64,000 nucleotides of DNA from Peristeroidobacter soli (lineage in GTDB: Bacteria; Pseudomonadota; Gammaproteobacteria; Steroidobacterales; Steroidobacteraceae): NCBI RefSeq assembly GCF_004138485.1, contig NZ_RYEV01000010.1:310001-374000 (forward strand). The letters run 5' to 3'. Position 1 is the first letter of the stretch; each line of letters starts with the position of its first letter. Under the pieces are notes generated by a model that had not been told where the DNA came from, searched no databases, and worked only from the letters and a program-made list of their open reading frames with translations. A program made the position numbers and the translations under genes. Positions 11,118 through 45,522 of the stretch are shown here, in pieces.

Positions 11118-11147
11118 GGATGCTTCTCGAGCGCGAGAGCCGGCGTT

Positions 11148-11168
11148 CCGGGCCTCGGTGAGGCCCGG
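11148..11168 (-). terminator. Intra-operon hairpin between TonB receptor and S9 peptidase genes
   Basis: A perfect 9-bp inverted repeat (ccgggcctc / gaggcccgg) with a 3-base loop. No T-run follows on the minus strand. It may be a partial terminator or an mRNA-stability hairpin that lets the receptor be expressed more than the downstream enzymes. Confidence 0.45.
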
Positions 11169-11198
11169 TACCGTGCAGGAGGTGAGATGCAGCGGTTG

Positions 11199-13685: not shown

Positions 13686-13779
13686 GTGCGCTCCCCGATA
13701 GCGGCTCTTGTAACGGCCTCTCATCAATTAAGACGAGCGGCCGGAACAAACACGGTATCGGTCGGCACGAAGTTTCCGA

Positions 13780-18062: not shown

Positions 18063-20696
18063 TCAGAAGCTCACGTCGAAGGACAGGCCGGTGACGCGAG
18101 GCTCCAGGGGTAAGGACTGGATCCCGAAAATCAGACTCGGATCGAGCGCACTCTGCAGCGCCGACTGCGACAGGTAGGCGCGCTTGTCGGTCACATTGCG
18201 GACGAACAGATTCACCGTCCACTGCCCGCTCGACACGCCGGCACGGACATCGCCCAGGGTGTAAGCAGGATCGCGCGTGTTCGGACCGTCGGTGGAGAGC
18301 GTCACGACGTTCTTCTCACCGACATAGCGGACACCTGCACCGATACGAGCGCTCAGCCGATCGCCAAGCGGCCAGGTGTAATCGGCGTTGAGGGCGCCCG
18401 ACCACTCGGGCACGCCAGGCAGTTGCTGGCCGGTGAGCAGCCCGCCCGGCACATCGGGCAACAACTCAGTCAGACGCGCCCGTGTGTAAGCGGCGTTGTA
18501 ACCGAGCGTGAGTCCGGCGACGGGTCGGAACGATCCCTCCAGCTCGACACCCCGGCTATAAGCATCGCCGGCGTTGGCGAGGAACGCACAGCTGCAGGCC
18601 TCGTTCACGATCGCCTGCTGGATGTCCCGCCAGTCGATATCGAACACACTGACATTGAGCAACGCCCGGCCGTCGAGGAAGGTCGATTTCAGGCCGAGCT
18701 CGTAACTGATCAGCGTGTCGGAATCGACGCTCGGCACGGCGCCCGCCAGAGCCACGTTCGGGCCACCGGGGCGATAGCCCGTCGCGACCTTGGCATAGAG
18801 CATGGCGTCGTCGCTGAATCGAAACCGGCTGGAGATCGACCAGGTCGTGACACTCTCCGATGCGGTATCCGATACGGGTGGAGCATTGCCAAGCACCAGC
18901 CCGCCGAGCTGCTGAGTGAACTTCTGTTCGTTGTGCGCGTAGCGAACGCCGCCGGTGACATCGAGCACTTCAGTGAGGTTGACGGTCACGCTGCCGAAGC
19001 CCGCGTATTCCTCGAACGTCGATGGCAGCGAGCCCACGAGGACGGGGCTCAGCGGTGGCTCGGTCAACTCACGATAGTCGGTGTCGAAGATCCTGGCCCG
19101 CTGCTGGTTGGTGCTGGTCTCATCGGTATAGAAAACGCCGGCCAGCCATTCGATGCGCTTGCCCGAGGCGGAGGCGATGCGCAGCTCCTGAGTGAGCTTC
19201 TTCAGATCCAGATCGACCCGATAGTCGCTATATCCCGGCGGCAGATCCGCCAGGACAGGCACCAGTCCGTAGCTGCTGGTCGTGTCCTGCAGCCGATGCG
19301 TGATGGCGCGCGACCAACTCGTCGCGGAGGTGACGGTGAGCTCTCGTGGGGCATCCCAAACCACCGTCGCGGAGTAATAGTCGACGTTCTTCGAGAACGG
19401 TTGCAGAAACGCGTTGGCTCCCGCCATCTCCCCGAGTGTCGGCTCGCCACGAAGCAGCTCGACGGCGTCATCGGTATAAGTGCTCAACTGATCCAATGTC
19501 ACCGCAGCGTTGTCATCGGAGGCAATGCGGTTCCAGATGCCGCCCAGATTCACACGCACGCTCGCGAGCGGCTCCCACGTCAAAGCGAGCCGGCCCCCAT
19601 ACTGACGTCCCGTGTTCGAATTGGCAGCACCGAGAAAAACGTTGTCCGTATAGCCCTGGTAGTGCTTGTCGTAGAGACTCGCGCGCAGCGCCAGCTGATC
19701 TGCGATGAGGGGAACATTGACGGCGGCACGTCCTGCGTAGCCGATTCGCCCGCCATGGTCGGCGCTGCTGGCTTCGCCACCGAATTGCGCGCTGAAGGCC
19801 GTCGGGTCTGCCTGCTTCAATACATACTTGAGCAAGCCGCCCATGGCGCCCGCGCCATAGAGCGTGCCTTGCGGACCGCGCAGCACTTCCAGGCGATCCA
19901 GGTCGTACGGCATGAGGTCCAGCGCGAAGAGCGTGGCGACGGCATAGTTACCGCTCGCACCCAGCGGCGTGTCGTCGATGTAATAGCCGATGACAGAGCC
20001 GGGGCCGACGGCGGCGATGCCGCGCAGAGTGACGGAGGCCTGCCCGGGCGACCCGCCGCCTTGAACGGCGAGGCCAGGGGCGTACTGCGCATAGTCGGCG
20101 AGCTGACTCAGCCCGAGTTCGGACAACGCCTCGCCTTTGATGGCCGTGACCGATGCTGGCACCTCCTGCAGACGCTCCGCGCGCTTCTGAGCCGTCACCA
20201 CGATCTCTTCGAGACCGGCAGCCTCCTGCGCGAGCGCTCCTTGTGCCCTCGCCCGATGTTCCGCAGCATCGCGAGCCTGTTCGACCTGAGCGATCCGCAA
20301 CCGGTCGCCCTGCCCCGTCGCGGTGACCGCGGGCGCGCCGCTCTTTGGCGGGTCCTGCTTCTGCCTGGATGGATCTCTCGACGCGGCGGTCGGCGCGAGC
20401 ACGACGGTGGCTTCGTTCAGGAATTCGTGTTTGATGCCGGTGCCTCGAAGCAACCGTGTCAGTGCCTCATCCGCCGTCATCACCTCATCGATGGGCGGCG
20501 CCACGCGTCCTGAAATCAATGGCGGATCGAACAGGATATTGAGGTTCGCCTGGCTGCCCACCGATCGCAGCGAATCCGCCAGTGGCTGACTCGGCAGATC
20601 GAATCGCAGCCTCGCCTCCGCCTGCGCGAGCGACGCCATACAAATGAGCGTCGTCGACAACGCCGAAGCCAACGTGAATTGCAGAGTGCCGCGCAT
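18063..20696 (-). CDS. TonB-dependent receptor with STN domain (module 2)
   Basis: An 877-residue receptor. ATG 20696 follows GGGGACA and begins a signal peptide (MRGTLQFTLASALSTTLICMASLAQA). The STN domain is at about 30-105 (LRFDLPSQPLADSLRSVGSQ), the TonB-box-like segment is LEEIVVTAQKRAERLQEVP (typical of the large IroR/CirA-like proteobacterial receptor class), then plug and barrel, ending in ...LSFDVSF. A low-complexity linker separates STN and plug. Its own FecR and sigma lie immediately upstream, so it is a signalling receptor. Ligand unknown. Confidence 0.93.
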   Translation of the reverse strand: MRGTLQFTLASALSTTLICMASLAQAEARLRFDLPSQPLADSLRSVGSQANLNILFDPPLISGRVAPPIDEVMTADEALTRLLRGTGIKHEFLNEATVVLAPTAASRDPSRQKQDPPKSGAPAVTATGQGDRLRIAQVEQARDAAEHRARAQGALAQEAAGLEEIVVTAQKRAERLQEVPASVTAIKGEALSELGLSQLADYAQYAPGLAVQGGGSPGQASVTLRGIAAVGPGSVIGYYIDDTPLGASGNYAVATLFALDLMPYDLDRLEVLRGPQGTLYGAGAMGGLLKYVLKQADPTAFSAQFGGEASSADHGGRIGYAGRAAVNVPLIADQLALRASLYDKHYQGYTDNVFLGAANSNTGRQYGGRLALTWEPLASVRVNLGGIWNRIASDDNAAVTLDQLSTYTDDAVELLRGEPTLGEMAGANAFLQPFSKNVDYYSATVVWDAPRELTVTSATSWSRAITHRLQDTTSSYGLVPVLADLPPGYSDYRVDLDLKKLTQELRIASASGKRIEWLAGVFYTDETSTNQQRARIFDTDYRELTEPPLSPVLVGSLPSTFEEYAGFGSVTVNLTEVLDVTGGVRYAHNEQKFTQQLGGLVLGNAPPVSDTASESVTTWSISSRFRFSDDAMLYAKVATGYRPGGPNVALAGAVPSVDSDTLISYELGLKSTFLDGRALLNVSVFDIDWRDIQQAIVNEACSCAFLANAGDAYSRGVELEGSFRPVAGLTLGYNAAYTRARLTELLPDVPGGLLTGQQLPGVPEWSGALNADYTWPLGDRLSARIGAGVRYVGEKNVVTLSTDGPNTRDPAYTLGDVRAGVSSGQWTVNLFVRNVTDKRAYLSQSALQSALDPSLIFGIQSLPLEPRVTGLSFDVSF

Positions 20697-20813
20697 GCTG
20701 TGTCCCCGGGCAGTCCCTGCCGTTGTTATGAAGTAAGTCCTTATCGGTTTAGACACGGCAGAACGCAGCAAACCTCATTCGGCATCGCCGATGCTCGCGA
20801 GGATGGATGCGTG

Positions 20814-21851
20814 CTAGCGGGCGGAGCTCTGCGCGCCGGGACCGCTGAGCGTGATCTCGCGATCCTCGTGATCCACATGCAGACCATAGGTTCGGGCCAG
20901 CGCCCCGGCAAAGTTCGCTGAATCTCCAGCGCGAAAGATTCCGCTGATCCGAATGTGCGCGACGCTCGGATCCTCGATGATGAGCCGGGCTACGCTGTAA
21001 CGATTCATCTCCTTCACCGCATCGACGAGCGGCGTGTCATCGAATGCCACTTGCCCGCGCTGCCACGCGGTCACGCGATCCAGCCGGGGGCGATCGATGG
21101 TGGCGGGTTCACTGGTCGCGAACGTGAGACGCTGGCCGGGCGCGAGCATCACCACCTCACCGGCGCTCGCCGGCGGCTCGACTCGCTCGGTCGTGCGTGC
21201 CGGCGCGTCGGCGGCGCGAGCATTCACAGACGAGACGGCCACTTTGCCCTCCACCAGCGTCACGGCGAGATTGCGATCCTCGCGTCTGACCAGGAACACG
21301 GTGCCGAGCGCCCTCACCTGCCGATCGCCACTCCTGACGATGAAGGGCCACCGCGGATTCTTCGCCACCTCGAACAAGGCCTCGCCCTGCTGGAGCTCAA
21401 TTTCGCGCTGCTCGGGCGTGTAGCGAACGACTGCACGTGTATTGGTGTTCAGATACATCCGCGTGCCGTCCTCGAGAGCCAGCGTGCGTTGCTCACCCAC
21501 CGCAGTCACGACCGCATCGGTACGCAGATACAACACGGTGCCGATCACGGTGATCGCCGCAACGACGGCCGCCGCAAGCGCCGCTTTGGAAACGCTGATG
21601 GTGAATCCCGCGAGCCCCCGCCTCGGCGTATGCTCCATCGGCCTGCGGTTGAGTCTCGCGGATTTCTCCCAGGTATCCGTGAGAAGCTCGAAGGCAGCCG
21701 CATGCTCCGCAGATTCGGCGAGCCAGCGACGCAGGCCTGCTTCCACTTCCTGCGTTCGGTTCGGTCCATGCAGCCGCGCAACCCACGCCGCAGCCTGCGC
21801 CCGGACGCTCGCGGATGGCATCGGTGAGGCTTTCAACTCGTGCGTGCTCAT
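20814..21851 (-). CDS. FecR family anti-sigma / signal transducer (module 2)
   Basis: A 345-residue FecR protein starting MSTHELKASPMPS, with ATG 21851 overlapping the sigma stop by 4 bases (ATGA). FecR_N-like motifs AAAWVARLHG and LRRWLAESAEHAAAF, a transmembrane helix at about 85-107 (AALAAAVVAAITVIGTVLYL), then the periplasmic FecR domain (GTRMYLNTNTRAVV, GEALFEVAKNPRWPF) and a C-terminal DUF4974-like region (DAVKEMNRYSVARLIIED). It pairs with the sigma gene and the STN receptor. Confidence 0.9.
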   Translation of the reverse strand: MSTHELKASPMPSASVRAQAAAWVARLHGPNRTQEVEAGLRRWLAESAEHAAAFELLTDTWEKSARLNRRPMEHTPRRGLAGFTISVSKAALAAAVVAAITVIGTVLYLRTDAVVTAVGEQRTLALEDGTRMYLNTNTRAVVRYTPEQREIELQQGEALFEVAKNPRWPFIVRSGDRQVRALGTVFLVRREDRNLAVTLVEGKVAVSSVNARAADAPARTTERVEPPASAGEVVMLAPGQRLTFATSEPATIDRPRLDRVTAWQRGQVAFDDTPLVDAVKEMNRYSVARLIIEDPSVAHIRISGIFRAGDSANFAGALARTYGLHVDHEDREITLSGPGAQSSAR

Positions 21852-22336
21852 GGCAGCTCGTTGACGCCCGACAGGACCGCGAGCGCGCTGGCCATGTGCT
21901 TCTCGACGGCACTGATGCTGATGCCCATCTGCCGCGCGATCTGGGCGTAGCTCAAGCCATCGAGCCGCTGCATGAAAAAGATCTCCCGGGTGCGCGGATT
22001 CACGGCGTCGAGCGCGTCGCGCATTCTCTTCAGGCATTCCTCGGCGGCGAGCATTTCCTCGGGCAGCGGACGCGTATCGAGAATGTCCGTGAAGCTCTCG
22101 ACCGCCTCCTCGCAATACAGCTCAGGATGCGCATCGCGTCTCGCGTTGGCGGCCAGGCGCAGCACCGTACGAACCAGGAACCCCTCCGGCCTGCGCACGT
22201 CCCCACCCTTCTCACAATATTCCTGCATCCTCAGGAACGCCTCCTGAATCAGGTCCTCCGACTCAGCATGGGTTCGACCCCGGCGCAGCAGCAGCCGTTG
22301 CAGGCGAGAGAAATAGCGCGGCAGATGCCTCATCAC
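21848..22336 (-). CDS. ECF RNA polymerase sigma factor, FecI-like (module 2)
   Basis: A 162-residue ECF sigma factor with a sigma-2 region (ESEDLIQEAFLRMQEYCE, RPEGFLVRTVLRLAANARR) and sigma-4 (VNPRTREIFFMQRLDGLSYAQIARQMGISISAVEKHMASAL). It is shorter and more divergent than the module 1 and 4 sigma factors. Overlaps its FecR by four bases. Expected to control the module 2 receptor and hydrolases. Confidence 0.9.
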   Translation of the reverse strand: MMRHLPRYFSRLQRLLLRRGRTHAESEDLIQEAFLRMQEYCEKGGDVRRPEGFLVRTVLRLAANARRDAHPELYCEEAVESFTDILDTRPLPEEMLAAEECLKRMRDALDAVNPRTREIFFMQRLDGLSYAQIARQMGISISAVEKHMASALAVLSGVNELP

Positions 22337-22504: not shown

Positions 22505-24634
22505 TCAGAAATCGAGCGCCACTGAGCCAATGATGGTGCGTGGCTGTCCGACCGTGATTCGCGTGGTGTTGCCAGCCGCGGGGAAATAGCGCTCATCGAG
22601 CACGTTCTTGACGTTCAAGCCGAAGCGCAGCTGCGAATCCCCTGGCACTCCGAACGATGCGTTCTTGAGGTAGTACCACAGGCTCAGGTCGACGACGGTG
22701 TAATCTCCGAGCGACCAGGTGTTGCTGGTATCGCCGAAACGGTCGGAAGTGTAATCGACACCCGCGCCCGCGCCGAGGCCAGCGAGCTTGCCGTCGCGTA
22801 CTTCGTAGCTGGCCCACAAACGCACGGTGTGTTCGGCGACGCCCGGCAGCGCATTGCCTTTGAAGGCGTTGAAGTCGCCGAGGATTTCGCTATCGGTGTA
22901 GGCGTAGGAGCCAACGAAATTCAAGCCCGGCAGCGGTTCGCCGGTGGCCGAGAGCTCCGCGCCGCGCGAGCGCACTTTGCCCACGAGGTCGAGCACGCCG
23001 GTGCCATTGAGCTCGGCGATGTTGTCCTTCTCCAACTCATAGACCGATGCGGTGAGAATCAAGCGACGCTCGAGGAACTCCCCTTTCGCGCCGAGCTCGT
23101 ACTGGGTCGAGGATTCCGGCGCGAACGTTCGTCCCGTCGTCGGATCCACCTGTGACACCGGATTGAAGCCTTCGCTGTAGCTCACATAGAGCGAGGTGGT
23201 CGCCGTCGGTTGATACAACAAACCGGTCTGCGGCGTGAACTCAGTCTTCTTGTCGAGCCTGGTCAGCGTGCCCGCGGCCAGATTCACGCCCCGTGTCTCA
23301 TCGTAGCGCCCACCCAGCAGCAACGTGAGATTGTCCACCAGGCTGACCTGATCCTGCAGGTACACGCCAAAGGATGAACTGTCCTCGCGGCGCGGATCGC
23401 CGGCGCCGGTGAGATTGCGCGAGATCAGCCCATAGACGGGATTGAAGATGTTGAACCCGCCGGCGCTCGAGCCCGTGAAGAAACGTCGATCGATATCCTC
23501 GTCGCGGAAGTCCGAGCCGACCGCGAGGCGATGCTCGATCGGGCCGGTGGCGAAGGTGCCCTCGAGCTGCGCGTTGGCGTTGTATGAGAGCACTTCGCGA
23601 TCCAGCGTGGCATCGAGCTGTCGAGTCAGATTGCCGGCGGCATTGACGCTGACCGGCCGCACCTGGACATCGAATTCATCTTCGCTGCGGTAGAGCAGAT
23701 TCACACTGCCGCGCCAGTTGTCGCTGAACTGGTGCTGCAGGCGGCTTTCCACCAGATGCACCTTGGAATCGCGCTCCTCGAACCGCTCACCGAAGCGGCG
23801 ACTCAGCGGAATATTGCCCGGAATGTAGCGCCCGCCGCGGCCGTCCGGAAGACTCACGAATCCGCGATCCACGGGACGATGGTCCGTGAAGTACTCGTAG
23901 GTGAGCAGCAACGCGGTGCGCTCGGTGAGATCCCAGCGCAGCGACGGGGAGATGAACTCGCGCTCGATCTCATAGAAATCGCGGAACGTGTCGGTGCGCT
24001 CCAGCGAGCCATTCAAGCGAAACGCCACCGTCTGTGCGTCGTTCACCGGACCGGTGAGATCGATCGTACCGAGTTTCTTACCGTACTCATCGAACACCAG
24101 CTGCGCGTAACCGCGCCGCTGGTAGCTCGGCTTCTTGGTGTTGATGTTGACCAGCCCGCCGGGCTCGATCTGGCCGAACAGCACCGAGGCCGGACCTTTG
24201 ATGATCTCCAGCGCTTCGATGTTCTGGGTCGGCGGTTGATTGCTGGTGACCGCGCTCAACCGCATGCCGTTGCGAAAGATCGAGTCGCGCCGAAAGCCGC
24301 GAATCAGAAAGTCGGTGAGCGTGCCGCCAAAGCCATCGCCTTCGGTGAGACCGGCGACGTTGCGTAACGCCTCGCCGAGACTCGACACCTGCTGATCGAG
24401 CAGCACCTGCTCCGGAATCACCTGCAGGCTGCGCGGCGTGGTGAGCAGGTCCTGTTCGATTCTGCCGATGGTCGCGGTGCGCGCGGCATACCGATCCTGC
24501 CTCGTGCCGAAGACCACGACCTCCTGAAGTGTGTCGTCGTCCGCCGCGGCCTTCTCAGCCGCCATGCCGTCCGATGCAGGCATGAGTGCGGCGAGCACGG
24601 CCGCAGCCGTCATGGTACGTGTGCGTGGATACAT
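22505..24634 (-). CDS. TonB-dependent siderophore-type receptor without STN domain (module 3)
   Basis: A 709-residue receptor with a signal peptide (MYPRTRTMTAAAVLAALMPASDGMA), a TonB-box-like LQEVVVFGTRQDRY, a plug with SLQVIPEQVLLDQ, GFGGTLTDFLIRGF and ALEIIKGPASVLFGQIEPGG (all typical of the TonB-siderophore receptor class), and a C-terminal barrel ending SVALDF. It lacks an N-terminal STN domain, so it imports but should not signal. It is related to its neighbour at 24757-27117 (shared PEQVLLDQ, RGFRR, EVIKGPAS-type motifs), suggesting old duplication. It has its own promoter-like motif upstream (24677-24706). Confidence 0.93.
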   Translation of the reverse strand: MYPRTRTMTAAAVLAALMPASDGMAAEKAAADDDTLQEVVVFGTRQDRYAARTATIGRIEQDLLTTPRSLQVIPEQVLLDQQVSSLGEALRNVAGLTEGDGFGGTLTDFLIRGFRRDSIFRNGMRLSAVTSNQPPTQNIEALEIIKGPASVLFGQIEPGGLVNINTKKPSYQRRGYAQLVFDEYGKKLGTIDLTGPVNDAQTVAFRLNGSLERTDTFRDFYEIEREFISPSLRWDLTERTALLLTYEYFTDHRPVDRGFVSLPDGRGGRYIPGNIPLSRRFGERFEERDSKVHLVESRLQHQFSDNWRGSVNLLYRSEDEFDVQVRPVSVNAAGNLTRQLDATLDREVLSYNANAQLEGTFATGPIEHRLAVGSDFRDEDIDRRFFTGSSAGGFNIFNPVYGLISRNLTGAGDPRREDSSSFGVYLQDQVSLVDNLTLLLGGRYDETRGVNLAAGTLTRLDKKTEFTPQTGLLYQPTATTSLYVSYSEGFNPVSQVDPTTGRTFAPESSTQYELGAKGEFLERRLILTASVYELEKDNIAELNGTGVLDLVGKVRSRGAELSATGEPLPGLNFVGSYAYTDSEILGDFNAFKGNALPGVAEHTVRLWASYEVRDGKLAGLGAGAGVDYTSDRFGDTSNTWSLGDYTVVDLSLWYYLKNASFGVPGDSQLRFGLNVKNVLDERYFPAAGNTTRITVGQPRTIIGSVALDF

Positions 24635-24756: not shown

Positions 24757-27117
24757 TCAGAAGGTCAATGTGACGCTGCCGAGCACGCTGCGGGGCCGGC
24801 CCACTTCGACGCGCAGATCGCCGCCGCTGGAGGGAAAGTAATGTTCATCGAACAGGTTCTTGACGGCCAGCTGCAGCCGCGCCTGCCCGAGCTGCGCCCC
24901 CGACGGGCGTCGCAGCGGCAGGTTGTACCAAAGGCTCGCATTCACCAGGGTGTACGCGCCCAGCGACCAGGTGTTGGCGTTGTTGCCGTAGCGATCGCCG
25001 GAACAGAACACGCCGGCGCCGACGCCGAGTCCATGCCAGCGACCGTCGTGAGGCTCGTAGCTCGCCCAGAAATTGAACGTATAGTCGGCGGTATTCTGCG
25101 GACGGCGACCGCGCAGGCTGCCGTACAGAATGTCCATGTCCGAGCGGGAATAGCCTGCGATGACGTTGGCGCCTCGCCACGGCTGACCGGCGAGTGTGAT
25201 TTCCACGCCGCGAGCGCGAAAATCCGCGGAGTCCACCGCATCGCTGCCCACTGCGATGTGCCGGCTTTCGATATCGAACAGCGCCAGTGAAACGCTCAAG
25301 CGATCGTCCGCCGCTTGCGATTTGACGCCGAGCTCGATTTGCCACGACTGTCGCGGCGTATCCAGCGCCGTCTGAGTTTCGGTGACGAGCAGGTTAGGCT
25401 CGAATGCCTCGGCGTAGTTCACCCAGAGCGAGGTTCGCGGACCGGGCCGAAGCACGAGGCCCGCGTGTGGCGAGACGACATCGATATCGCCGGTGTTCGC
25501 CGAGCGCGCGCCGAAGACCGAGGCCGAATACACCCGCTCCCCTCGCAGGCCGAGCAACAGCGAGATCCACGGCGCCGGCGTGAAGTAGTCCTGAACGTAA
25601 GCGCCATGATCACGCTCGCGCGACGCGACTGCGCTGACATCGGTCAGCTCCGGCGATAGCTGACCGTATACGGGAGCAAAAATATCGAAGCCGGCCAGCG
25701 TCGCGCCCGTGGCGAACCGCCGGTCCTGGTCGAGATATCGAAAGTCGAAGCCCGCGCTGAGCCGGTGCTCCATCGCACCGTGGGTGAGCGCTCCGACCAG
25801 CGACGCCCGCCCATACCAGGCGCGAGTGCTCCGATCGAGTGAGCCATCGACGCGACGACTGAGCATCCCTTGGGCAGTGACTTCGACGGGCCGCACCTGC
25901 AGGTCGTCGGCCTCGCTACGTTCATGCAAGAGACCGAACTGCGCCTGCCACTTCTCGGCGATGTCGTGCGTCACGTCCGCCTGCAGGAAATGCAGTTTCA
26001 GATCGAGCTGTTCGAACGGCTCGCCCAGGCGCCGGCCCCGCGGCAGATCCGGTATGTAACGACCGCCACTCGCATCCGGCAACGTCAGCAATCCTCGATC
26101 GACGGGCCGCGACTCGTTGCGGTACTCGTAACTTGCTTCCACACGCGTGCGTGGGCCGGTCTGCCAACGCGACGCCAGGGCAAGCACGCCCTGCTCCAGC
26201 TGCGTGAAATCACGGAACGACGCCGCCTCGTGCCAGGAAAGATTCACTCGCATCGTCGCGTCCTGCTCGTGAATTGGAAAGGAGCTGTCGAGCAAGGCGA
26301 ATCTGGTGTCGTAGGAGCCCATGCGCCCCTCGAGGATGGTGCGTGGCTGCGCCGATGGCTTCTTGGTGATGACGTTCACCACCCCGCCCGGCGGCAGCTG
26401 ACCGAACGCAATCGACGCAGGCCCCTTGATGACTTCGATGCGCTCGACGTTGACGGTGTTGATGCGAAAGATGCTGCCGCGCCTGAAACCATCGCGATAC
26501 ACGGAGTTGCGCCGAAAGCCGCGCACCAGGAAATCGTCGTTGGTGCCGCCGAAGCCATCGCTGAAAGTCACGCCGGTGACGTTCTGCAGGGCTTCCGTCA
26601 GATCCAGCGCCTTCTGATCGAGCAGCACCTGTTCCGGAATGATCTCCACCGTGCGCGGCAACTCCAGAAAGCTCAATGGAAAGCCGGTCAGCGTCGTCGT
26701 GGCCTCGATGTCATAGCGACGCGGGTCCACGCCCAGGACGATCACCTCCTCCACGCTGTCGCGTCGCGCCGATGCGCCTGCCGGTGATGCCGGCGACACG
26801 TTGCGCCTGGCGGCCTCGAATATTCGAACACTGCGCCGGTCGATCTCGAACGACAGCCCCGTGCCCGAGAGCAGCGCATCGAGTGCGGCGGACGCGGACA
26901 TCTGGCCATGAACGCCGTGGGTACGGGCCTTCGCTATCCGCGGGTCCGTATAGACGACCTGCAGGTGCGTTCGTTGCGAGAAGGCGATCAACGCATTACG
27001 CAACGATCCAGCCGCGACATCGAAAAGGTACTGCTGCTCGGATTGCGCGGCAGACGCGCAGCTTGTGTGGACGAGACTCAGCGGGCCCCAGAGAATCAGT
27101 ACCAGCAGCGTGCGCAT
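24757..27117 (-). CDS. TonB-dependent siderophore-type receptor with STN domain (module 3)
   Basis: A 786-residue receptor with a signal peptide (MRTLLVLILWGPLSLVHTSCASA), an STN domain at about 30-105 (FDVAAGSLRNALIAFSQRT), a TonB-box-like VEEVIVLGVDPRRYD, a plug with VEIIPEQVLLDQKALDL, DDFLVRGFRR and ERIEVIKGPASIAFGQLPPGG, and a barrel ending in SVTLTF. It starts 18 bases after its FecR gene, so sigma, FecR and receptor form one unit. The STN domain makes it the sensing receptor of module 3. The adjacent lasso peptide isopeptidase suggests the ligand may be a lasso or other modified peptide (inference). Confidence 0.93.
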   Translation of the reverse strand: MRTLLVLILWGPLSLVHTSCASAAQSEQQYLFDVAAGSLRNALIAFSQRTHLQVVYTDPRIAKARTHGVHGQMSASAALDALLSGTGLSFEIDRRSVRIFEAARRNVSPASPAGASARRDSVEEVIVLGVDPRRYDIEATTTLTGFPLSFLELPRTVEIIPEQVLLDQKALDLTEALQNVTGVTFSDGFGGTNDDFLVRGFRRNSVYRDGFRRGSIFRINTVNVERIEVIKGPASIAFGQLPPGGVVNVITKKPSAQPRTILEGRMGSYDTRFALLDSSFPIHEQDATMRVNLSWHEAASFRDFTQLEQGVLALASRWQTGPRTRVEASYEYRNESRPVDRGLLTLPDASGGRYIPDLPRGRRLGEPFEQLDLKLHFLQADVTHDIAEKWQAQFGLLHERSEADDLQVRPVEVTAQGMLSRRVDGSLDRSTRAWYGRASLVGALTHGAMEHRLSAGFDFRYLDQDRRFATGATLAGFDIFAPVYGQLSPELTDVSAVASRERDHGAYVQDYFTPAPWISLLLGLRGERVYSASVFGARSANTGDIDVVSPHAGLVLRPGPRTSLWVNYAEAFEPNLLVTETQTALDTPRQSWQIELGVKSQAADDRLSVSLALFDIESRHIAVGSDAVDSADFRARGVEITLAGQPWRGANVIAGYSRSDMDILYGSLRGRRPQNTADYTFNFWASYEPHDGRWHGLGVGAGVFCSGDRYGNNANTWSLGAYTLVNASLWYNLPLRRPSGAQLGQARLQLAVKNLFDEHYFPSSGGDLRVEVGRPRSVLGSVTLTF

Positions 27118-27135: not shown

Positions 27136-28161
27136 TCAACCCGGTGGAGCAAGGCCGCTCAGATACACGATGCCCTTGGCGGCGTCGCGCGAAATGCGAA
27201 CCGGCAATGCATGTTCGATGGCCGCGAGCGCCGCGTCCGGATCATGAGCATCGAACACACCATACACACGCAGCTTCTCCAGCGCCGCGTCCGTGATCAC
27301 CAGTTGCTGGTCCGTATAGCGCCCCAGCTTCCGAATGACTTCGCTCAGTGGCGCGCCATCGAAGATCAGCTGGCCGTCGCGCCAGGCCGCGACATCCTCC
27401 GGGCTGCCAAGCATGCTCAGGCGCAGGCTCGCCTCCTCGCCCGTCTGCTCCGGCGCGGCGCTGTAAGAGACTTCTTCTCCGGCACGCGCGATCACCTTGC
27501 GCAGCGTCCGGCTGACCGGATCGTGCCGTGTCACCTCGATCACACCTTCGACGACGGCGATGCGAACGAAAGCATCATGAACATCGACTTCGAAGACCGT
27601 ACCGATGGCGCGCACTTCGCCATTCGCCGCGCTGACGATGAAAGGCCGATCAGGATCGTGCGCGACGGAGAACAGCGCCTCGCCGGAGCGCAACTGGATG
27701 TCACGACGTTTCGCTGTGAGTTTCACATCCATGCTCGAGCGTGCATCGAGATGGACCTGCGAGCCATCGCTCAGCTCGATCAGCTGCGGACTGCCCATTT
27801 CCGTGGCGTAGTGTTCGACGAGCGGTGTGCGGTTGATGAACACGACAGCGACGGCGAGCACGATGACTGCGGCCAGCCCCCATCCCAAAGCCATGCGATG
27901 CCACGGTGACGCGGGCGCACGCGCTTCGACGCGCGCCGGCGACGTACCCGCCGCGAAGGGCGATGGCGGCGTCATATCCCCCACCAGATCCCACAATGCT
28001 TCCAGCTCGCGATAACGCAGGTATTGGTCGGGATGCTCGCTGGCCCATTTCTCGAACAGCGCGACATCGCGTGGCTGCACCTCGCCCGAGTGCATGATGC
28101 TGAACCACTCATCGGCCTTGTCGACCGCGCGCGCTGCGTGGCGAATCGCTTCGTTGCGCAT
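27136..28161 (-). CDS. FecR family anti-sigma / signal transducer (module 3)
   Basis: A 341-residue FecR protein. ATG 28161 is preceded by GAGGA at good spacing, 10 bases after the sigma stop. The cytoplasmic N-terminus has ADEWFSIMHSGEVQPRDVALFEKWASEHP, a transmembrane helix lies near 96-114 (LGWGLAAVIVLAVAVVFI), followed by the periplasmic FecR domain (GSQVHLDARSSMDV, GEALFSVAHDPDRPF) and a C-terminal DUF4974-like domain. Couples the STN receptor 24757-27117 to the sigma factor. Confidence 0.9.
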   Translation of the reverse strand: MRNEAIRHAARAVDKADEWFSIMHSGEVQPRDVALFEKWASEHPDQYLRYRELEALWDLVGDMTPPSPFAAGTSPARVEARAPASPWHRMALGWGLAAVIVLAVAVVFINRTPLVEHYATEMGSPQLIELSDGSQVHLDARSSMDVKLTAKRRDIQLRSGEALFSVAHDPDRPFIVSAANGEVRAIGTVFEVDVHDAFVRIAVVEGVIEVTRHDPVSRTLRKVIARAGEEVSYSAAPEQTGEEASLRLSMLGSPEDVAAWRDGQLIFDGAPLSEVIRKLGRYTDQQLVITDAALEKLRVYGVFDAHDPDAALAAIEHALPVRISRDAAKGIVYLSGLAPPG

Positions 28162-28171
28162 ATCCGTATCC

Positions 28172-28732
28172 TCAGTCCTCGAGCGGCGCGAGCAGCTTGC
28201 TCTTGAGACAGGCCATCGCATGCGCCAGATGCTTGTGCACCATGCGGGTCGATATGTTCAGCCGGCCGGCGATCTGCGACACGGCCAGGTTTTCGTAACG
28301 ACGTAAATAGAATACCTCGCGGCATTTCACCGGCAGCGCGTCGTAGGCTTCCATGAAAACGCCATACAGTTGCCGGTAGTTGAGCTCTTCTTCCTGGGTC
28401 GGCGCCGGGCTTTCGTGATCCTGTTCGCGGATCACGGCGGTCGGATCGATCACCTTCAACCGGTCCCGCCGCAGCCGGTCCAGCGCCAGGTTGTTGGCGA
28501 TCTGAAACAAATAAGCGCGCGGATGCTCCAGCGTCTGCGGCGCCGGCATCGCCAGCAGCTTGAGCAGCGCTTCCTGGGCAAGGTCGCTGGCGGTTTCCTC
28601 ACAACGCACCTTGGTGAAGATGAAGCGTTGCAGCGACGCCTGATGGGTCTGCGCCAGTCGCGACATGAACAGCGCTTTCGCCTGCTCGCGGTCCCAGACC
28701 AAGGTCATCTCGTTGGTTGCCGACTTGCCCAT
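28172..28732 (-). CDS. ECF RNA polymerase sigma factor, FecI-like (module 3)
   Basis: A 186-residue ECF sigma factor: sigma-2 (QASLQRFIFTKVRCEETASDLAQEAL, RAYLFQIANNLALDRLRRDR) and sigma-4 (LPVKCREVFYLRRYENLAVSQIAGRLNISTRMVHKHLAHAM). The first ATG is at 28732, but a promoter-like motif ends only 7 bases upstream, so ATG 28708 (MTLVWDRE) may be the true start or the mRNA may be leaderless. Likely autoregulated and the driver of the four motif-bearing promoters of module 3 (inference). Confidence 0.88.
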   Translation of the reverse strand: MGKSATNEMTLVWDREQAKALFMSRLAQTHQASLQRFIFTKVRCEETASDLAQEALLKLLAMPAPQTLEHPRAYLFQIANNLALDRLRRDRLKVIDPTAVIREQDHESPAPTQEEELNYRQLYGVFMEAYDALPVKCREVFYLRRYENLAVSQIAGRLNISTRMVHKHLAHAMACLKSKLLAPLED

Positions 28733-28776: not shown

Positions 28777-30972
28777 TCACGGCGCGGGGCCCCGGACGCT
28801 CAGCCAGCGCTGGAACCAGTCCAGGGCGCCCTGCTGGGAAGTACGGCGCTCCCAGGGGCGGGTCAGCACGTGCACGCCATTGGGCAGATAGCTCATCTCG
28901 ACCGGCCGGGCCAGGCTGCGAAGGCCGGCGTAGAGTTCCCAACTCGCCAGCAAGGAGGTGGGCCCGATGGCTTCCAGTCGCACGGGGCTGTGGATGGCGT
29001 CGATATTGAACGTCGGCTGCGAGTTGCGCCAGCGCTCCAGGCAGGCGCCGAAAGGCGCGCAACCGATCAGGGCTTCGTACTCCTGCCGCCGGCCACGGCC
29101 GGGCGCATTGAATCCCAGCAGATAGCTCACATAGCCCATGTCGAGCGGGTCGGCGACGACCGCCGCCGCGAACGGCACGGACGAATGCGCCAACGTGTAT
29201 TGCACGTAGTAGCCCGAGCGACTGAATCCCATCAGGCCGACCCGCGCGGTGTCGATTGGAAAGCGGCTGCTCAGCGCACCGACCGCCGCCTCGAACCCGG
29301 CCTGGTGGGCTTGCGCTTCCGCCGGTGTGTTGCGCTCATCGAAGTGATCCTCCATTTGCAGAACGAACATGTCGCGCGCCGCGAGTGCCCGGGCTGCATA
29401 GCCGGTCGTGAATGGCTCCCCGGTGAGCGAATGGGAACCATCGAGCAGGAAGCGCTCGGGCCAGAAGCCGTGACTCTGGATGACCAGGGGATATCGTTTG
29501 CCGGGCATCGCGCTCACTGGACGGAGCAGACCGCCTTTCCAGACGCGCCCGCGCGCGTCGGTCCACTCGATGACCTCGGCGGTGCGCGGCAAGCGCTCGC
29601 GAAACGAGGGATTCAGGTCAGTCAGGCGGGCGCGACGGCCGCTGCGACAGTCGGTTGCCACGACATCCGGCGGCGTATTCAAACGCTCCTCGATGGCGAG
29701 CTCGAACCTGCCATCGCAGGCGGGGGATTCGATCCGGCGCCACCCGCCGGCGCGCGCTCGAAAGCGCCGTGCCGGAAGCGCACCGTCGATGCTGGATCGA
29801 TGCAGGAGCAACGTGTCGTTGGCGGGCCGGCTCACGGCCGCGACGCGCTCGAAACGCTCGGTGCTCCAGTAGGAGGACAAGGGGGCGATGCGCTGTTGCA
29901 GGTTCCCCGAGCGGTCCACCTCCACGATGGCCGCGGATAAGCTCAATGCGGGGGCCAACAGCGTATTCACCAGAACGATGCTGCTCGAGTCGCGGCTCCA
30001 TAGCGCCGCAGGCGCCGGATTCGCTTCAACCAGCTCCCCGGTCGGCGCATCGACGAGCGTCGTGACCGCGCCGGTGCGCACATCGATCAGCACGAAATGG
30101 GCGATCCACGGCGGCGGCGTCTCTGCATCAACCATATCCGCCGCCGATAATCGACGAATGGCGCGTGGATAAGCGTAGTCCGCCCAGGCCTTCGACCACT
30201 TCCGATACGGCCTGATCGCAACCGCATGATTACCATCCGGGGAGAGCCACACGCCGCGCGTTGACGGCAGCAAGGCGACTGGCACCTCGCTGACTGCAAT
30301 CTCACGACCACTGCCCAAGTCTCGTACCCGCGTGACATAGGGGGCGCTGAGGCTGGCTTGCATGTTGACGGCCATGGCGGCAAACACGCTTTGGTCGGTG
30401 AGTCGAAACCCCTGCCGTCGTTTGCTGTCGATGTCGGGATCGGGAACCGCGATGCGTGAGGTGTATATGACGGTGTCGCCGACGATGTCATAGGACCAGA
30501 CGCCACCGGGAACTTCCACCAGCGTGTCGATCCGGCCGGTCGATACGTCGCACGCATATAAACGTGGCGGTCCGGACGGGCCCTCGGCACGGAACGCGAT
30601 GCGCCGGCTGTCCGCGAGCCAGCGCACATCGGCAATCGCAGGTTCATTCGTCGCCGAGGAGAATTGCGCTACGCGTGTGGACTCCGGTGGCGCGCCCCGG
30701 GCGCTCAACCACGCCCGGATCTGCTGCGTCGAGTACACGTCGATCGCGAAGTCGTTGTCACCGCTCTGAAGGTTGCCTCGGGCGGTGACAATCAACACGC
30801 GCTGACCGTCCGGGGAGAACTGGAATTCGCCGCCGGGCTCCGGAGCCACGATGCGGCGCATTTCGATGGAGTCGGCGACGGTAAAGCGACCGTCCAGGGT
30901 CGATGCTGCGTGACTCTCGCTCGCCCACGCCAGCACGGCGAGAAAAACTATCGATAGCTGTCGCACGTGCAT
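28777..30972 (-). CDS. Atxe2-like lasso peptide isopeptidase (S9 family), exported
   Basis: A 731-residue S9-type protein with signal peptide MHVRQLSIVFLAVLAWASESHA and a GGAGGG ribosome site. The N-terminal half is a degenerate beta-propeller. The C-terminal half matches what I know of the Atxe2 lasso isopeptidase family: LTDLNPSF before the hydrolase domain, SHGFWPERFLLDG, nucleophile S584 in GFSRSGYYVQYTLAHS, then FNIDAIHSPVRLEAIG (probable acid E667, 83 residues on), H701 in PNGVHVLTRPWER and the TSQQGALDWF ending. Known members hydrolyse the isopeptide bond that closes the lasso ring. In sphingomonads and Caulobacter such genes sit with FecI, FecR and a TonB receptor, as here, but usually also with precursor and maturation genes, which are absent from this window. 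Confidence 0.82.
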   Translation of the reverse strand: MHVRQLSIVFLAVLAWASESHAASTLDGRFTVADSIEMRRIVAPEPGGEFQFSPDGQRVLIVTARGNLQSGDNDFAIDVYSTQQIRAWLSARGAPPESTRVAQFSSATNEPAIADVRWLADSRRIAFRAEGPSGPPRLYACDVSTGRIDTLVEVPGGVWSYDIVGDTVIYTSRIAVPDPDIDSKRRQGFRLTDQSVFAAMAVNMQASLSAPYVTRVRDLGSGREIAVSEVPVALLPSTRGVWLSPDGNHAVAIRPYRKWSKAWADYAYPRAIRRLSAADMVDAETPPPWIAHFVLIDVRTGAVTTLVDAPTGELVEANPAPAALWSRDSSSIVLVNTLLAPALSLSAAIVEVDRSGNLQQRIAPLSSYWSTERFERVAAVSRPANDTLLLHRSSIDGALPARRFRARAGGWRRIESPACDGRFELAIEERLNTPPDVVATDCRSGRRARLTDLNPSFRERLPRTAEVIEWTDARGRVWKGGLLRPVSAMPGKRYPLVIQSHGFWPERFLLDGSHSLTGEPFTTGYAARALAARDMFVLQMEDHFDERNTPAEAQAHQAGFEAAVGALSSRFPIDTARVGLMGFSRSGYYVQYTLAHSSVPFAAAVVADPLDMGYVSYLLGFNAPGRGRRQEYEALIGCAPFGACLERWRNSQPTFNIDAIHSPVRLEAIGPTSLLASWELYAGLRSLARPVEMSYLPNGVHVLTRPWERRTSQQGALDWFQRWLSVRGPAP

Positions 30973-31114: not shown

Positions 31115-34100
31115 ATGCGTCAGTCCACAGTGAGCGCCGCCCTGCTGCTGTCGTGGTCCCTCTCATTGCCTGCAACGAACGTCGTTGCGCGGACCCTCAT
31201 CGACGAGAGTCCGGTGCAGCCGTTCGCGCAGCGTACGCTCGCGTTCTCCACCGAATCGGGAACGTGGCTGTCGCTCGATGTCTTTGCGGACGGCCGGGGC
31301 CTGGTGTTCGATCTGCTCGGCGATCTGTACCTGTTGCCGATGTCGGGGGGCAAGGCCACCCCGCTCACGCGCGGACCGGCATTCGACAGCCAGCCCTCGC
31401 TATCTCCGGATGGCCGCTGGGTCGCATTCATCAGCGATCGCGACGGCGCGGAGAATCTATGGATCGCCCGCACCGACGGCTCCGCTTCACGACAACTGAC
31501 TCACGACGAATGGGGCATGTTCGCCTCGCCCGCGTGGCATCCGAACGGCAAGTCCGTCGTGGTGTCGCGCACGCTGCGCGGCTATCGCACCGGCTACGAG
31601 CTCGTCGAGTTCGATCTGACCGGCAAGGAGCTCGCCCGGCATTCCACCGTCAATCAGACCGAGGATGCGCGCAGCGAAATCAGTGCCGTTGGCGCGAGCT
31701 TCGACAACGAGGGCAAGTTTCTTTATTACGCGCGGCGTATCGGCCGGCATCCGCGCAACGTTTCCTTTCCGATCTGGGCCATTCATCGCGTGGATCTGAA
31801 GAACGGCGAGGATGTCCGTATCGTGACGGAGCCCGGCAGCGCGTTCCGCCCTCGCCTGTCCGGCGACGGACGCTGGCTCGCCTATGCGACGCGCCTGTCG
31901 GGGCCCGATGGCCCCACGGCATTGAAGCTGATGGATCTCACGAGCCACGGCAGTCGCGTGTTGCTCTCCAACCTGGATCGCGACGATCAGGAGAGCGAGG
32001 ACTTCAATCGCGACATCCTGCCGGGTTTCAGCTTCACCCCCGACAGCACCGCGATCGTGCTGGCCACCGGCGGCAAGCTACGACGCCTGCCGCTCGCTGG
32101 CGGGGCGCCCACCGACATTGCGTTTCGAGCCGATGTGAGCCTCACGCTTGCGAATCCCGGCGTGCAAGGCGAGCGGCCTGAGCTGACGGACAGCCATCCG
32201 GTGCGATTGTTTCAATCGCTCGATCCGGCGCCGGACGGCACGTCGGTCGTGCTCTCCGCGCTCGGCAGTCTCTATCTCCACGACACTCGCGCCATGACGG
32301 TTCGCAAGCTGGCGACGCCGACGAACGCGTTTCACCCGCGCTGGTCCATCGATGGCCACAGCCTGCTGTATGTGAGCTGGAATCCCAACGAAGGCGGCGC
32401 GCTGTGGCGGCTGAATGTCACGGCGCCCGACGCCGCGCCCGTCAAGATCACCCGCGAGTCCGCCTACTACGCCTGGCCTGTGCAATGGCCGGACGGCAGC
32501 ATCGTGGTTCAGAAAACCAGCACACGCAATCAGTTGCTGAACGTGCAAAAGTCGGGTGCGCCGGTGAGGGGCCTGCAACTCGTCCGGATCTCGCCCGATG
32601 ATGGCGCGGAACAAGTGCTGACCGACGCTCCGCCAAAGGCTCGCTTCTACTATCCGCAACTGGGCAAGGCACATCGGATCGAAGGCGATACGCGCGTGTT
32701 CTTCCATGCGCACGATGGACTGATGGCGTTCGCCCCGGAAACTCGCCAGGTGACGCCGGTGTTCTCGCTGGAGCAGCCGTTCGATGAGTATATGAGGCGC
32801 ACGCCGCGGCCCGCCGATGACATCCGGGTCAGCCCGCGCGGCGACTTCTACGTCGCCAAAATCGCCGAGCAGCTCTATCTCGTGCCAAGAAGCGCCGACA
32901 AGGAACCGCTGCGACTCACCGTTGCGGACGGCGCACGCAAACTCACTCGCTATGGCGTGGATCAGATGGAATGGTCCCGCGATGGTCGCACCGTGTACTG
33001 GTCGCTCGGGAACGAGCTCTCCATGCTCGAGGTCGGCGCCCTGAATGCCCGAGCGCTCCCGGCCAGCGAGCAACTGCGCAAGTCCGTTCGCTCCAGCCGC
33101 GTGGACATTCCCCTGCCGCGTCCCGACTCGGCGTCATCGCAAAAACTCGTGCTCAAAGGCGCGACGATCCTGCCGATGACCGGTGCTGCCGCGATCAAAG
33201 GTCATGCCATCGTCATCGCCGGCAATCGCATCGCAGCCATCGTGCCGGAGCAGGAAGCGGCACGCATCAGTGACGCGCGCTTCGTCGATGTCTCCGGCAA
33301 GTACATCCTGCCCGGCTTCATCGATTTGCATGCGCACTGGTCCGTGCTGAGCCGCGACGGCATCGCCGCCGGTCCCGTGTCGCCGTTCCTCGCCAATCTG
33401 GCGTACGGTGTCACTGCAACCCGCGATCCGCAGAGTTTCACAACCGATCTGTTCGCCTATGCCGACCTCGTGGAGAGCGGCGCGCTGCTGGCGCCTCGCC
33501 TGTTCACGACGGGTCCGGCGATTCAGTCCGATATTCACTTCGAATCGCCCCAGGATGTACGTGACGTCATCACTCGCTTCCGTGATTACTATCGAACCAA
33601 TACCGTCAAGTTCTATCTCGCCGGCAATCGCGGCCAGCGACGGATGTTCATCACCGAAGCGAACCGCCTGGGCATGCGCGTGACCTCGGAGTCCGCGCGA
33701 AATTTCAAATGGGATTTCACGATGGTGCTCGACGGCGCCGATGGCCAGGAGCATCCAATCCCGCACGCCCCGCTCTACCAGGACGTCGTGGAAGTCTATG
33801 CACGCAGCGGCATCGTCTACACCCCAGTGATGGCGATGACGCCGGCAACCTATTCGCCGCTCAACCTGTGGACGCTGCAGTTCAAGCCCGAGGACCATCC
33901 TCGGGTGGTCCGCTTCGTTTCGCCCAACATCGTGAAGGGCGCAGCCGCGATGCTGGATACCGATGCCGACGGTGTTAGAACGACAGTGCATCCGGTATCG
34001 CAGGCGGCCGCTGCTCGCGCCATCGTCGAAGCCGGCGGTCACGTCGGCGTCGGTGCCCATGCGCTGCGCCACCTGCAGGGGCTGCGCTTCCACTGGGAGA

Positions 34101-34411
34101 TGTGGACGCTGCACGCCGATGGCCAGGGGATGTCGGCTCAACAAGTGTTGACCGCAGCCACGCGCACCGCAGCCCAAACGCTCGGCCTGGAACGTCAGCT
34201 GGGCACACTCGAAGCCGGCAAGCTCGCGGACCTGGTCGTACTCGAACGCAACCCGCTCGACGACTTGCGCAACACCGCCAGTGTGCTCTACACGATCAGC
34301 GATGGCAGGTTGCTCAATAGTGCAACATTGGAACAGCTGTGGCCTGCCAGCGCTCCAGCCCCCCGATTGTGGTGGCACGACACGCGCGCCGAAGGAATCG
34401 TCACGCAGTAA
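31115..34411 (+). CDS. Exported amidohydrolase with N-terminal TolB-like beta-propeller
   Basis: A 1098-residue two-domain protein. Signal peptide MRQSTVSAALLLSWSLSLPATNVVA; ATG preceded by AAAGG. Residues about 30-670 form a WD40/TolB-like propeller (LSPDGRWVAFISDRDG, repeated PDG blades). Residues about 680-1090 are an amidohydrolase: sandwich strand LVLKGATILPMTG, metal-binding GFIDLHAHW, a TVKFYLAGN lysine-region strand and the C-terminal GTLEAGKLADLVVLERNP. Paralogous to 37153-40329. Family enzymes are often annotated as peptidases or amidases but few are characterised. Divergent from the isopeptidase and sharing its promoter motif, so probably co-induced with it. Confidence 0.9.
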   Translation: MRQSTVSAALLLSWSLSLPATNVVARTLIDESPVQPFAQRTLAFSTESGTWLSLDVFADGRGLVFDLLGDLYLLPMSGGKATPLTRGPAFDSQPSLSPDGRWVAFISDRDGAENLWIARTDGSASRQLTHDEWGMFASPAWHPNGKSVVVSRTLRGYRTGYELVEFDLTGKELARHSTVNQTEDARSEISAVGASFDNEGKFLYYARRIGRHPRNVSFPIWAIHRVDLKNGEDVRIVTEPGSAFRPRLSGDGRWLAYATRLSGPDGPTALKLMDLTSHGSRVLLSNLDRDDQESEDFNRDILPGFSFTPDSTAIVLATGGKLRRLPLAGGAPTDIAFRADVSLTLANPGVQGERPELTDSHPVRLFQSLDPAPDGTSVVLSALGSLYLHDTRAMTVRKLATPTNAFHPRWSIDGHSLLYVSWNPNEGGALWRLNVTAPDAAPVKITRESAYYAWPVQWPDGSIVVQKTSTRNQLLNVQKSGAPVRGLQLVRISPDDGAEQVLTDAPPKARFYYPQLGKAHRIEGDTRVFFHAHDGLMAFAPETRQVTPVFSLEQPFDEYMRRTPRPADDIRVSPRGDFYVAKIAEQLYLVPRSADKEPLRLTVADGARKLTRYGVDQMEWSRDGRTVYWSLGNELSMLEVGALNARALPASEQLRKSVRSSRVDIPLPRPDSASSQKLVLKGATILPMTGAAAIKGHAIVIAGNRIAAIVPEQEAARISDARFVDVSGKYILPGFIDLHAHWSVLSRDGIAAGPVSPFLANLAYGVTATRDPQSFTTDLFAYADLVESGALLAPRLFTTGPAIQSDIHFESPQDVRDVITRFRDYYRTNTVKFYLAGNRGQRRMFITEANRLGMRVTSESARNFKWDFTMVLDGADGQEHPIPHAPLYQDVVEVYARSGIVYTPVMAMTPATYSPLNLWTLQFKPEDHPRVVRFVSPNIVKGAAAMLDTDADGVRTTVHPVSQAAAARAIVEAGGHVGVGAHALRHLQGLRFHWEMWTLHADGQGMSAQQVLTAATRTAAQTLGLERQLGTLEAGKLADLVVLERNPLDDLRNTASVLYTISDGRLLNSATLEQLWPASAPAPRLWWHDTRAEGIVTQ

Positions 34412-34682: not shown

Positions 34683-35396
34683 TCAGCTCGAAGCGCGACG
34701 ACGAACGCGAGTCGCCACCGTTGCGCCGATGAGTCCCATCATCATCAACGCCAGTGTCTCTGGCTCCGGGACGGTGGTCGTGCCTGCCGCGTTGTTGTAA
34801 CTGATGCTGTTGACGATGGAATAACCATCGTTGCCGGCGAGCAGGACCCGGCTGATATTGCCCGCCTCGGAGCTCAGTTCGAGCGACTGCTGCCCCCGCT
34901 GATCGATGATGAGCCGCGGCATCAGTGACAACAGATTGCCAGCCGCATCGAACGCCCACGCCCACGGCGAGTCCGTCTCCTGGGTAGAATAGAACTGAAT
35001 GAAATCCGTGGCGCGCTCGAACGTCACTTCCAGCAGGTGCTGAGGCTGCGAGTAACAATCGGCGTGAAGCTGCTGCAGACAGTTGCCGATGAGCCCCGCA
35101 TTCGAATTCCAAGAGCTGAACGCCTTGCCATTGGCCTTCTGCCAACCAAACATCGTCGTCCCCAGCGCGTCGCACCCTCGCGCTCCTGGCGTGCACCCGT
35201 GCGCATACACCGCGCTCGACTGCCGGCCGGCTTCGGTAAACGTCACATGCGAGAGCGTGATGCCCTCATACGTATCGCCGACTTCGGTGCCCGAAACATA
35301 GGCCCCTGCGTCGATGGTGATCGGAACAGCCCACACCCCTTGCGCCGCGAGCAGGGTGCACAGTCCGAACATCGCAAGCCACGATTGTCTGATCAT
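34683..35396 (-). CDS. PEP-CTERM sorting domain protein of a local paralogous family
   Basis: A 237-residue exported protein: signal peptide (MIRQSWLAMFGLCTLLAAQGVWA), a globular region, then VPEPETLALMMMGLIGATVATRVRRR, the classic PEP-CTERM signal (PEP motif, hydrophobic helix, Arg cluster) processed by exosortase. Shared with the proteins at 44793 and 45523 are TIDAxxYxxGTxVxxxxEGxTLSHxTF, HLLEVTFERATDFIQF, AFDAAGN and a VNSISYN-type strand; the Cys-rich middle loops also correspond. ATG supported by AAGGAT upstream. Function unknown; probably surface or extracellular-matrix associated. Confidence 0.85.
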   Translation of the reverse strand: MIRQSWLAMFGLCTLLAAQGVWAVPITIDAGAYVSGTEVGDTYEGITLSHVTFTEAGRQSSAVYAHGCTPGARGCDALGTTMFGWQKANGKAFSSWNSNAGLIGNCLQQLHADCYSQPQHLLEVTFERATDFIQFYSTQETDSPWAWAFDAAGNLLSLMPRLIIDQRGQQSLELSSEAGNISRVLLAGNDGYSIVNSISYNNAAGTTTVPEPETLALMMMGLIGATVATRVRRRASS

Positions 35397-42854: not shown

Positions 42855-43024
42855 GCCTTCTCCCCATGCGACGTAATTTTTGTGTCGCTCGAGTACTGGA
42901 GACGAAGAGCTCCGATTATTCCTGCGGCAGGCCCGCGCGACGAACGAACCTCGAAAATCCTGCAGCTTTGGCCGCACGGCGCGATTGAGTTAATGTGACC
43001 GCTTCGCCTCACGGAAAGCGGACT

Positions 43025-45464: not shown

Positions 45465-45522
45465 GATTGCTTTCCTTTTTTTGAATCGTCAAACGATGGA
45501 TCAGACGGGGCGGCGTCCGCCC

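Follow-up and report, generated by a model that had tools for sequence, protein, structure and literature searches.

The closest described relatives of the gene considered here are the sphingopyxin I lasso isopeptidase SpI-IsoP (PDB 5jrk/5jrl) and the astexin-2/-3 lasso isopeptidase AtxE2 (PDB 5txc/5txe). According to passages of a review (PMC9266682), such isopeptidases are parts of lasso gene clusters, SpI-IsoP included; clusters that contain one are described with a neighbourhood of an extracytoplasmic function (ECF) sigma factor, a FecR regulator and a TonB-dependent receptor; and the role of the enzymes and their peptides is called still enigmatic. This study analysed a 64,000-nucleotide stretch of Peristeroidobacter soli DNA (contig NZ_RYEV01000010.1, here C9, positions 310,001 to 374,000; hereafter the window), which carries at 28777-30972 on the minus strand an open reading frame (ORF) with an ATG start for a 731-residue protein, P0001. 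Trees place P0001 with strong support inside the lasso isopeptidase clade of SpI-IsoP and AtxE2 and apart from ordinary S9 peptidases, in a third lineage, so far unnamed and here called P-type. We tentatively propose that P0001 opens an imported, externally supplied peptide with an isopeptide-linked, lasso-like ring as part of an inducible uptake module.

Sequence and phylogenetic placement of P0001

The NCBIfam model of the Atxe2 isopeptidase, NF033523, aligned residues 31-724 of P0001 to positions 2-637 of its 638 (E 9e-44) and was the sole NCBIfam match at E 0.001. Pfam gave a single, weak S9 match (PF00326, 24.6 bits with a cut-off of 22.6). A search of PDB sequences returned four matches, the best to SpI-IsoP (5jrk, 1e-13), followed by AtxE2 (5txc, 7e-9; 5txe, 2e-8) and an S9 peptidase (8wt1, 2e-5), and a profile of eight P-type rows matched AtxE2 at 4e-60, SpI-IsoP at 7e-37 and ordinary S9 proteins at 2e-28 and weaker. 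Ordinary peptidases were thus not the best match. The initial annotation, made from the sequence alone, had associated this S9 protein with the Atxe2 family by four motifs, and all four, LTDLNPSF and GFSRSGYY among them, were found letter for letter.

Trees parted P0001 from ordinary S9 proteins in each sampling (support values given as pairs). The full-length tree of 46 S9 proteins, built without the proven enzymes, revealed an isopeptidase clade apart from ordinary S9 (100/98) that comprised 17 AtxE2-type rows (100/100), seven P-type rows (99/97) and three further rows. When SpI-IsoP and AtxE2 were included in a catalytic-domain tree, a 30-row clade separated from ordinary S9 (100/100), in which SpI-IsoP joined the three further rows (97/87), AtxE2 fell inside the AtxE2-type group and support for P-type was weak (82/51). 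The addition of seven P-type genes from other families produced a 39-row clade (100/99), in which P-type (95/89) was sister to AtxE2-type (97/92). P0001 lay within a subclade of nine rows located away from lasso synthesis genes, hereafter unlinked (94/95), and of the five genes in the adjacent subclade (100/99), four were lasso-linked and one was unlinked. Across 38 labelled rows, 23 unlinked and 15 lasso-linked, the label changed nine times on the tree, the sampling being non-random.

Some rows were removed or were unstable. L034 (the same as L106) and two pieces from genome G008 were dropped from the 46-row and 30-row-clade trees, and ten ordinary S9 rows were dropped before the 39-row-clade tree, which retains L163P, a near-copy of L162P. 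L142S has a long branch and a doubtful ORF end. L016 grouped with SpI-IsoP (97/87) in the 30-row tree and paired with L142S away from SpI-IsoP in the 39-row tree, where L076, whose locus has a lasso B gene 12 kb away, remained ungrouped.

In the alignment, Ser584 and His701 of P0001 occupied the columns of the AtxE2 Ser and His, and Glu679 shared its column with the SpI-IsoP Glu, not with the AtxE2 acid; the reference residues are those that we take to be catalytic in the two enzymes, except Ser527, which is named in the title of 5txe. Ser584, Glu679 and His701 are therefore candidate catalytic residues. The Ser and His were conserved in all 14 aligned P-type rows. The N-terminus appeared signal-like by eye, and P0001 is probably a secreted S9-fold protein.

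P0001 resembles SpI-IsoP in clade, best PDB match and acid column, but belongs to another lineage and lies outside any lasso gene cluster. With AtxE2 it shares the whole-length model match, the NP, Ser and His motifs and the ECF/FecR/TonB receptor neighbourhood, and it differs in model score, acid column, receptor type and the lack of a lasso cluster.

The module around P0001

The genes of the module and its divergent neighbour are as follows; G008 is the genome of a second species of the same genus.

28777-30972, minus strand: P0001, P-type member of the lasso isopeptidase clade, probably secreted and with an S9 fold (NF033523, PDB sequence matches, trees, alignment)
28172-28732, minus strand: FecI-like ECF sigma factor (profile match; 85% identical counterpart in the same place in G008)
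27136-28221, minus strand: FecR-like anti-sigma regulator, start possibly at 28161 (profile match; 70% identical counterpart in the same place in G008)
24757-27117, minus strand: TonB-dependent receptor of siderophore type with a FecA-like N-terminal part (TIGR01783, 280.6 bits, cut-off 223.5; 72% identical partial gene in G008)
22505-24634, minus strand: second TonB-dependent receptor of siderophore type, FoxA/FhuA-like (TIGR01783, 366.4 bits; 122 bp downstream)
31115-34411, plus strand: PD40 beta-propeller/amidohydrolase protein, divergent, upstream of P0001 (77.7% identical divergent neighbour kept in G008)

The ECF sigma factor, FecR and signalling-type receptor genes adjoin in a FecI/FecR/FecA-type layout, with gaps of 18, -50 and 44 bp. 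The module thus resembles FecI-FecR-FecA signalling uptake modules, including the FecA-like N-terminus of the receptor, but is headed by a hydrolase gene. The gene order is kept in G008, where the enzyme is 71% identical. We infer from its position that the second receptor also belongs to the module.

P0001 is not part of a lasso A/B/C cluster, as judged by B and C profiles (the precursor was not searched by model): neither lasso B (PF13471) nor Asn-synthase (PF00733) matched at E 0.001 on contig C9, inside or outside the window. A looser search returned one sub-cut-off PF13471 scrap at C9:255283, outside the window. The earlier statement that lasso genes are absent holds for the 64 kb within this scope; the genome as a whole, however, contains two lasso clusters.

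Elsewhere in the window, three further receptor/FecR/ECF sets were noted (7114-15328, 18063-22336 and 40326-44645). A PEP-CTERM protein is encoded at 34683-35396, and two short secreted-looking proteins (44793-46128) resemble it by eye. The region 35624-63999 carries an amidase, a PD40-amidohydrolase and a CstA carbon-starvation transporter and then, by eye, Lrp-type regulators and a branched-chain keto-acid dehydrogenase set; it is perhaps a peptide and amino-acid catabolic setting.

Isopeptidase-clade genes and lasso clusters in related genomes

Sixteen P-type genes were found, four adjoining lasso clusters in congeners (L071, L072, L074 and L075, one each in G009, G007, G002 and G013) and 12 unlinked, with P0001 among the latter. 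Each of the four, 25-29% identical overall to P0001, adjoins a lasso C gene, a B gene (PF13471), a TonB receptor of the lasso-cluster class and a short precursor-like ORF; the C gene matched PF00733 in three of the loci and was recognised in G013 by BLAST to the others. Unlike at P0001, the 20 kb of these loci showed no recognisable ECF or FecR gene. That P-type proteins act on lasso peptides is argued chiefly from the position of these four genes and from the proven enzymes in both outer lineages.

The precursor-like ORFs (L071:6097-7172, L072:13455-14345, L074:6201-7057 and L075:6055-7199) have in common a leader-like stretch, LGDAxxET[RK], read by eye. Lasso precursors carry a Thr two residues before the core. 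Because this rule would put the core start of the four clusters at Glu, Gln or Gly, their rings may begin with an unusual residue. According to a passage of PMC12670498, Asn is the first residue of metanodin, which comes from Steroidobacteraceae.

The 12 unlinked P-type genes are P0001, its G008 relative, L028, L031, L067iso and seven in genomes of families f7 and f12. All seven f7/f12 loci have an ECF sigma factor, FecR and a receptor, and neither a B nor a C gene was recognised within their 19-20 kb; the L067iso locus has the same three genes. No ECF, FecR or receptor gene was recognised in the 20 kb of L028, and a receptor only in that of L031. A P-type gene is also present in G071 and G114, two genomes of another family whose assemblies are 95% and 93% complete; PF13471 matched nothing in either, even with the threshold relaxed to E 0.01, cyclases not having been searched there. 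P-type genes of the subclade of P0001 occur in genomes without a lasso B match.

The host genome (G000, 9.37 Mb) contains seven ORFs above the NF033523 cut-off (476-751 bits; 83 and 44 candidates scored). Another five were recognised in the trees, namely L057_S9b and L065_S9b (with SpI-IsoP), L016 and the P-type P0001 and L067iso, giving 12 clade members. The two lasso clusters, with two lasso B genes, both lie on contig C2: one at 1054-1057 kb adjoins an AtxE2-type gene (L062), and the other at 1396-1399 kb (L064) has a receptor and no isopeptidase. Eleven of the 12 clade members are located away from lasso synthesis genes, and neither their 20 kb loci nor the window gave a BLAST match to lasso B and C seeds. 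An ECF sigma factor, FecR and a TonB receptor occur near all 12. The genome thus has 12 receptor-coupled genes of the isopeptidase clade and only two lasso clusters, an excess that does not hinge on P0001 itself. The point of the annotation that the enzyme has no lasso genes beside it is supported and extends to 11 genes of the clade in this genome, but one of the two endogenous lasso clusters lacks an isopeptidase.

The cluster lacking an isopeptidase recurs among congeners.

L064:5147-11046; also L131, L134, L135 and L138 (five congeneric genomes): lasso cluster without isopeptidase, receptor abutting the cyclase gene

Among 147 genomes of the order, an AtxE2-type gene over the cut-off was found in six, a P-type profile match at E 1e-60 in seven and a lasso B match at E 1e-6 in 18; in the class sample, one of 369 genomes, G000 itself, had an over-cut-off AtxE2-type gene. 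These per-genome counts are lower bounds, the class search having scored three candidates per genome and the order search seven. G102 contains four P-type genes and one AtxE2-type gene with two B genes, and clade genes were fewer than B genes in G010 and G011 within the searches made. In G008, PF13471 matched nothing on the contigs that hold its two over-cut-off AtxE2-type genes.

Two side observations concern lasso clusters in other genomes. In G005 (L140:6830-11263), a lasso B gene lies beside two convergent cyclase-like genes, one of which is spread over two overlapping ORFs. In three genomes of one genus, g18, lasso B matches occur in pairs approximately 5 kb apart on opposite strands.

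G030:C19:56582-61723: lasso B pair
G150:C66:24529-29689: lasso B pair
G170:C102:81372-86505: lasso B pair

Possible roles of P0001 and its relatives

In the role that we tentatively favour, the TonB receptor with the FecA-like signalling part would import a peptide ligand across the outer membrane, FecR and the ECF sigma factor would turn the module on, and P0001, as a periplasmic serine hydrolase, would open the side-chain-linked ring of the ligand (an isopeptide, most likely that of a lasso peptide), after which the ligand would be degraded or a cargo released. The ligand would most likely come from outside the cell, and the catabolic use suggested in the initial annotation is plausible. Several results weigh against this proposal, in general or in favour of a particular alternative. 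P0001 scored 150.2 bits with NF033523 and the curated cut-off is 400 bits; an outright AtxE2-family label was therefore ruled out, and the isopeptidase assignment of the annotation stands only as membership of the SpI-IsoP/AtxE2 clade in the trees. The acid of the triad is Glu or Asp in 11 of the 14 aligned P-type rows and is missing from L067iso, L164P and L165P. The isopeptidases covered in the passages of the review cut only their cognate lasso peptides (PMC9266682). Outside G000 and G008, eight over-cut-off AtxE2-type genes were found; a lasso B gene is no more than 5 kb away from seven of them and 12 kb away from the remaining one (G096). Unlinked AtxE2-type sets thus characterise these two genomes and are not general. 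In a Foldseek search with the predicted structure of P0001, ranks 1-6 went to an ordinary S9 carboxypeptidase and ranks 7-14 to SpI-IsoP and AtxE2 (template modelling (TM) score approximately 0.3). That model, made from a thin five-row alignment (P0001, one relative and three other S9 proteins of the window), was of too poor quality (predicted local distance difference test, pLDDT, 56; predicted TM score, pTM, 0.41) to be used for or against the proposal, or for triad geometry.

The receptors point to a possible, though doubtful, alternative, in which P0001 was recruited to a siderophore module and cleaves an imported peptide siderophore or a similar non-lasso peptide, releasing iron or a nutrient. 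Both P0001 receptors pass the siderophore model TIGR01783, whereas nine receptors of other clade modules or lasso clusters scored at most 78 bits or were not listed, and six receptors of f7/f12 P-type modules had no NCBIfam match at E 1e-40. A quick receptor tree of 51 rows placed all 14 lasso-cluster receptors and all 18 labelled unlinked-module receptors on one side, with eight of 17 controls, and the two P0001 receptors on the other side with nine controls (Shimodaira-Hasegawa-like approximate likelihood ratio test, SH-aLRT, 100). In this tree, the L163 receptor was dropped as a near-copy of that of L162, and L128_5522, the receptor of the L076 locus, was counted among the unlinked ones. 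The annotation had likened the sigma/FecR/STN receptor neighbourhood to that of astexin-type clusters; this is not supported for the receptors of P0001, which are siderophore-type, in contrast to the receptors examined in other clade modules with ECF and FecR. A receptor two genes away from the unlinked P-type gene L031, labelled as a control, is also siderophore-type (297 bits) and on the side of P0001, so P0001 is not the sole exception, and at least two unlinked P-type genes lie near siderophore receptors. Nevertheless, the P0001 protein itself stays in the isopeptidase clade, and no other siderophore gene was noticed adjoining the module, synthesis genes not having been searched for. Siderophore receptors can carry lasso peptides as well: FhuA carries microcin J25, as stated in a passage of PMC11006600, and the receptor type is thus compatible with a lasso ligand.

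It is unlikely that P0001 acts in trans on the cell's own lasso peptide, that of the isopeptidase-less cluster at C2:1396-1399 kb, although the cluster has the layout of P-type lasso clusters minus the isopeptidase and its cyclase groups with cyclases having P-type partners (100/100 in one tree and 100/99 in another). Clusters of this type occur in five of 14 congeners, and an unlinked gene of the P0001/L028 type in three of these five and none of the nine others (Fisher p 0.027), a small count confounded by kinship, with four of the nine (G003, G004, G005 and G006) being fragmented or incomplete assemblies. G005 has clusters in the same wider cyclase clade with no recognised isopeptidase, and when it is counted, the association becomes three of six and none of eight (p 0.055 by hand). 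In two of the five cluster genomes, G010 and G011, no such gene was found; the module of P0001 stands apart from the cluster and has receptors of another class; and genes of its subclade occur, as described above, without a lasso B match in the genome. The least likely account is that P0001 is an ordinary secreted S9 oligopeptidase whose resemblance is generic and whose neighbourhood is common in a peptidase-rich genome. With 150 of 170 candidates scored, at least 109 PF00326 matches at E 0.001, counted as stretches and not as genes, were obtained in G000, a seemingly large number for one genome of this size. The receptor/FecR/ECF set was present in the 18-19 kb around four of 12 ordinary S9 genes (L169, L172, L174 and L177), compared with 12 of 12 clade members (Fisher p 0.0013), further ordinary S9 genes outside the 12 also have such sets, and two ordinary S9 peptidase genes of the window (7114-9252 and 9108-11117) follow the first of its further sets. 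The controls were high-scoring genes chosen by hand from the PF00326 list and labelled by hidden Markov models (HMMs); the neighbours of clade members were labelled by BLAST and then, except for L062, by the same HMMs with the same result. Ordinary S9 genes in or beside modules, for instance those at L066, L065, L059, L061, L058, L067 and the window, were left out. Because the control was non-random and these genes were omitted, the difference is at most an enrichment. The astexin-like context claimed in the annotation is present but is not diagnostic, and the four ordinary S9 genes rule it out as proof of an isopeptidase role. Against a generic S9 role, P0001 was not among the 109 PF00326 places listed, its own PF00326 match is weak and the trees part it from ordinary S9 rows.

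No report of unlinked lasso isopeptidases was found in the open-licence literature searched, a scope that makes this weak evidence of novelty. It is possible, although not probable, that the receptor-coupled isopeptidase repertoire of some soil bacteria serves foreign lasso or lasso-like peptides, with each module sensing, importing and opening a particular one as food, for detoxification or in cargo theft. If this is true, the enzyme would exist independently of lasso biosynthesis, and synthesis clusters would be only one of its homes. In the genomes sampled, most P-type genes are unlinked and most belong to uptake modules that look inducible, and two of the genomes that carry one yielded no lasso B gene; such a lineage would make it testable which external peptide induces the module and is opened by it. 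The lineage could also be a source of enzymes that cut lasso peptides, on which ordinary proteases have little effect, and could point to soil organisms specialised in degrading these peptides.

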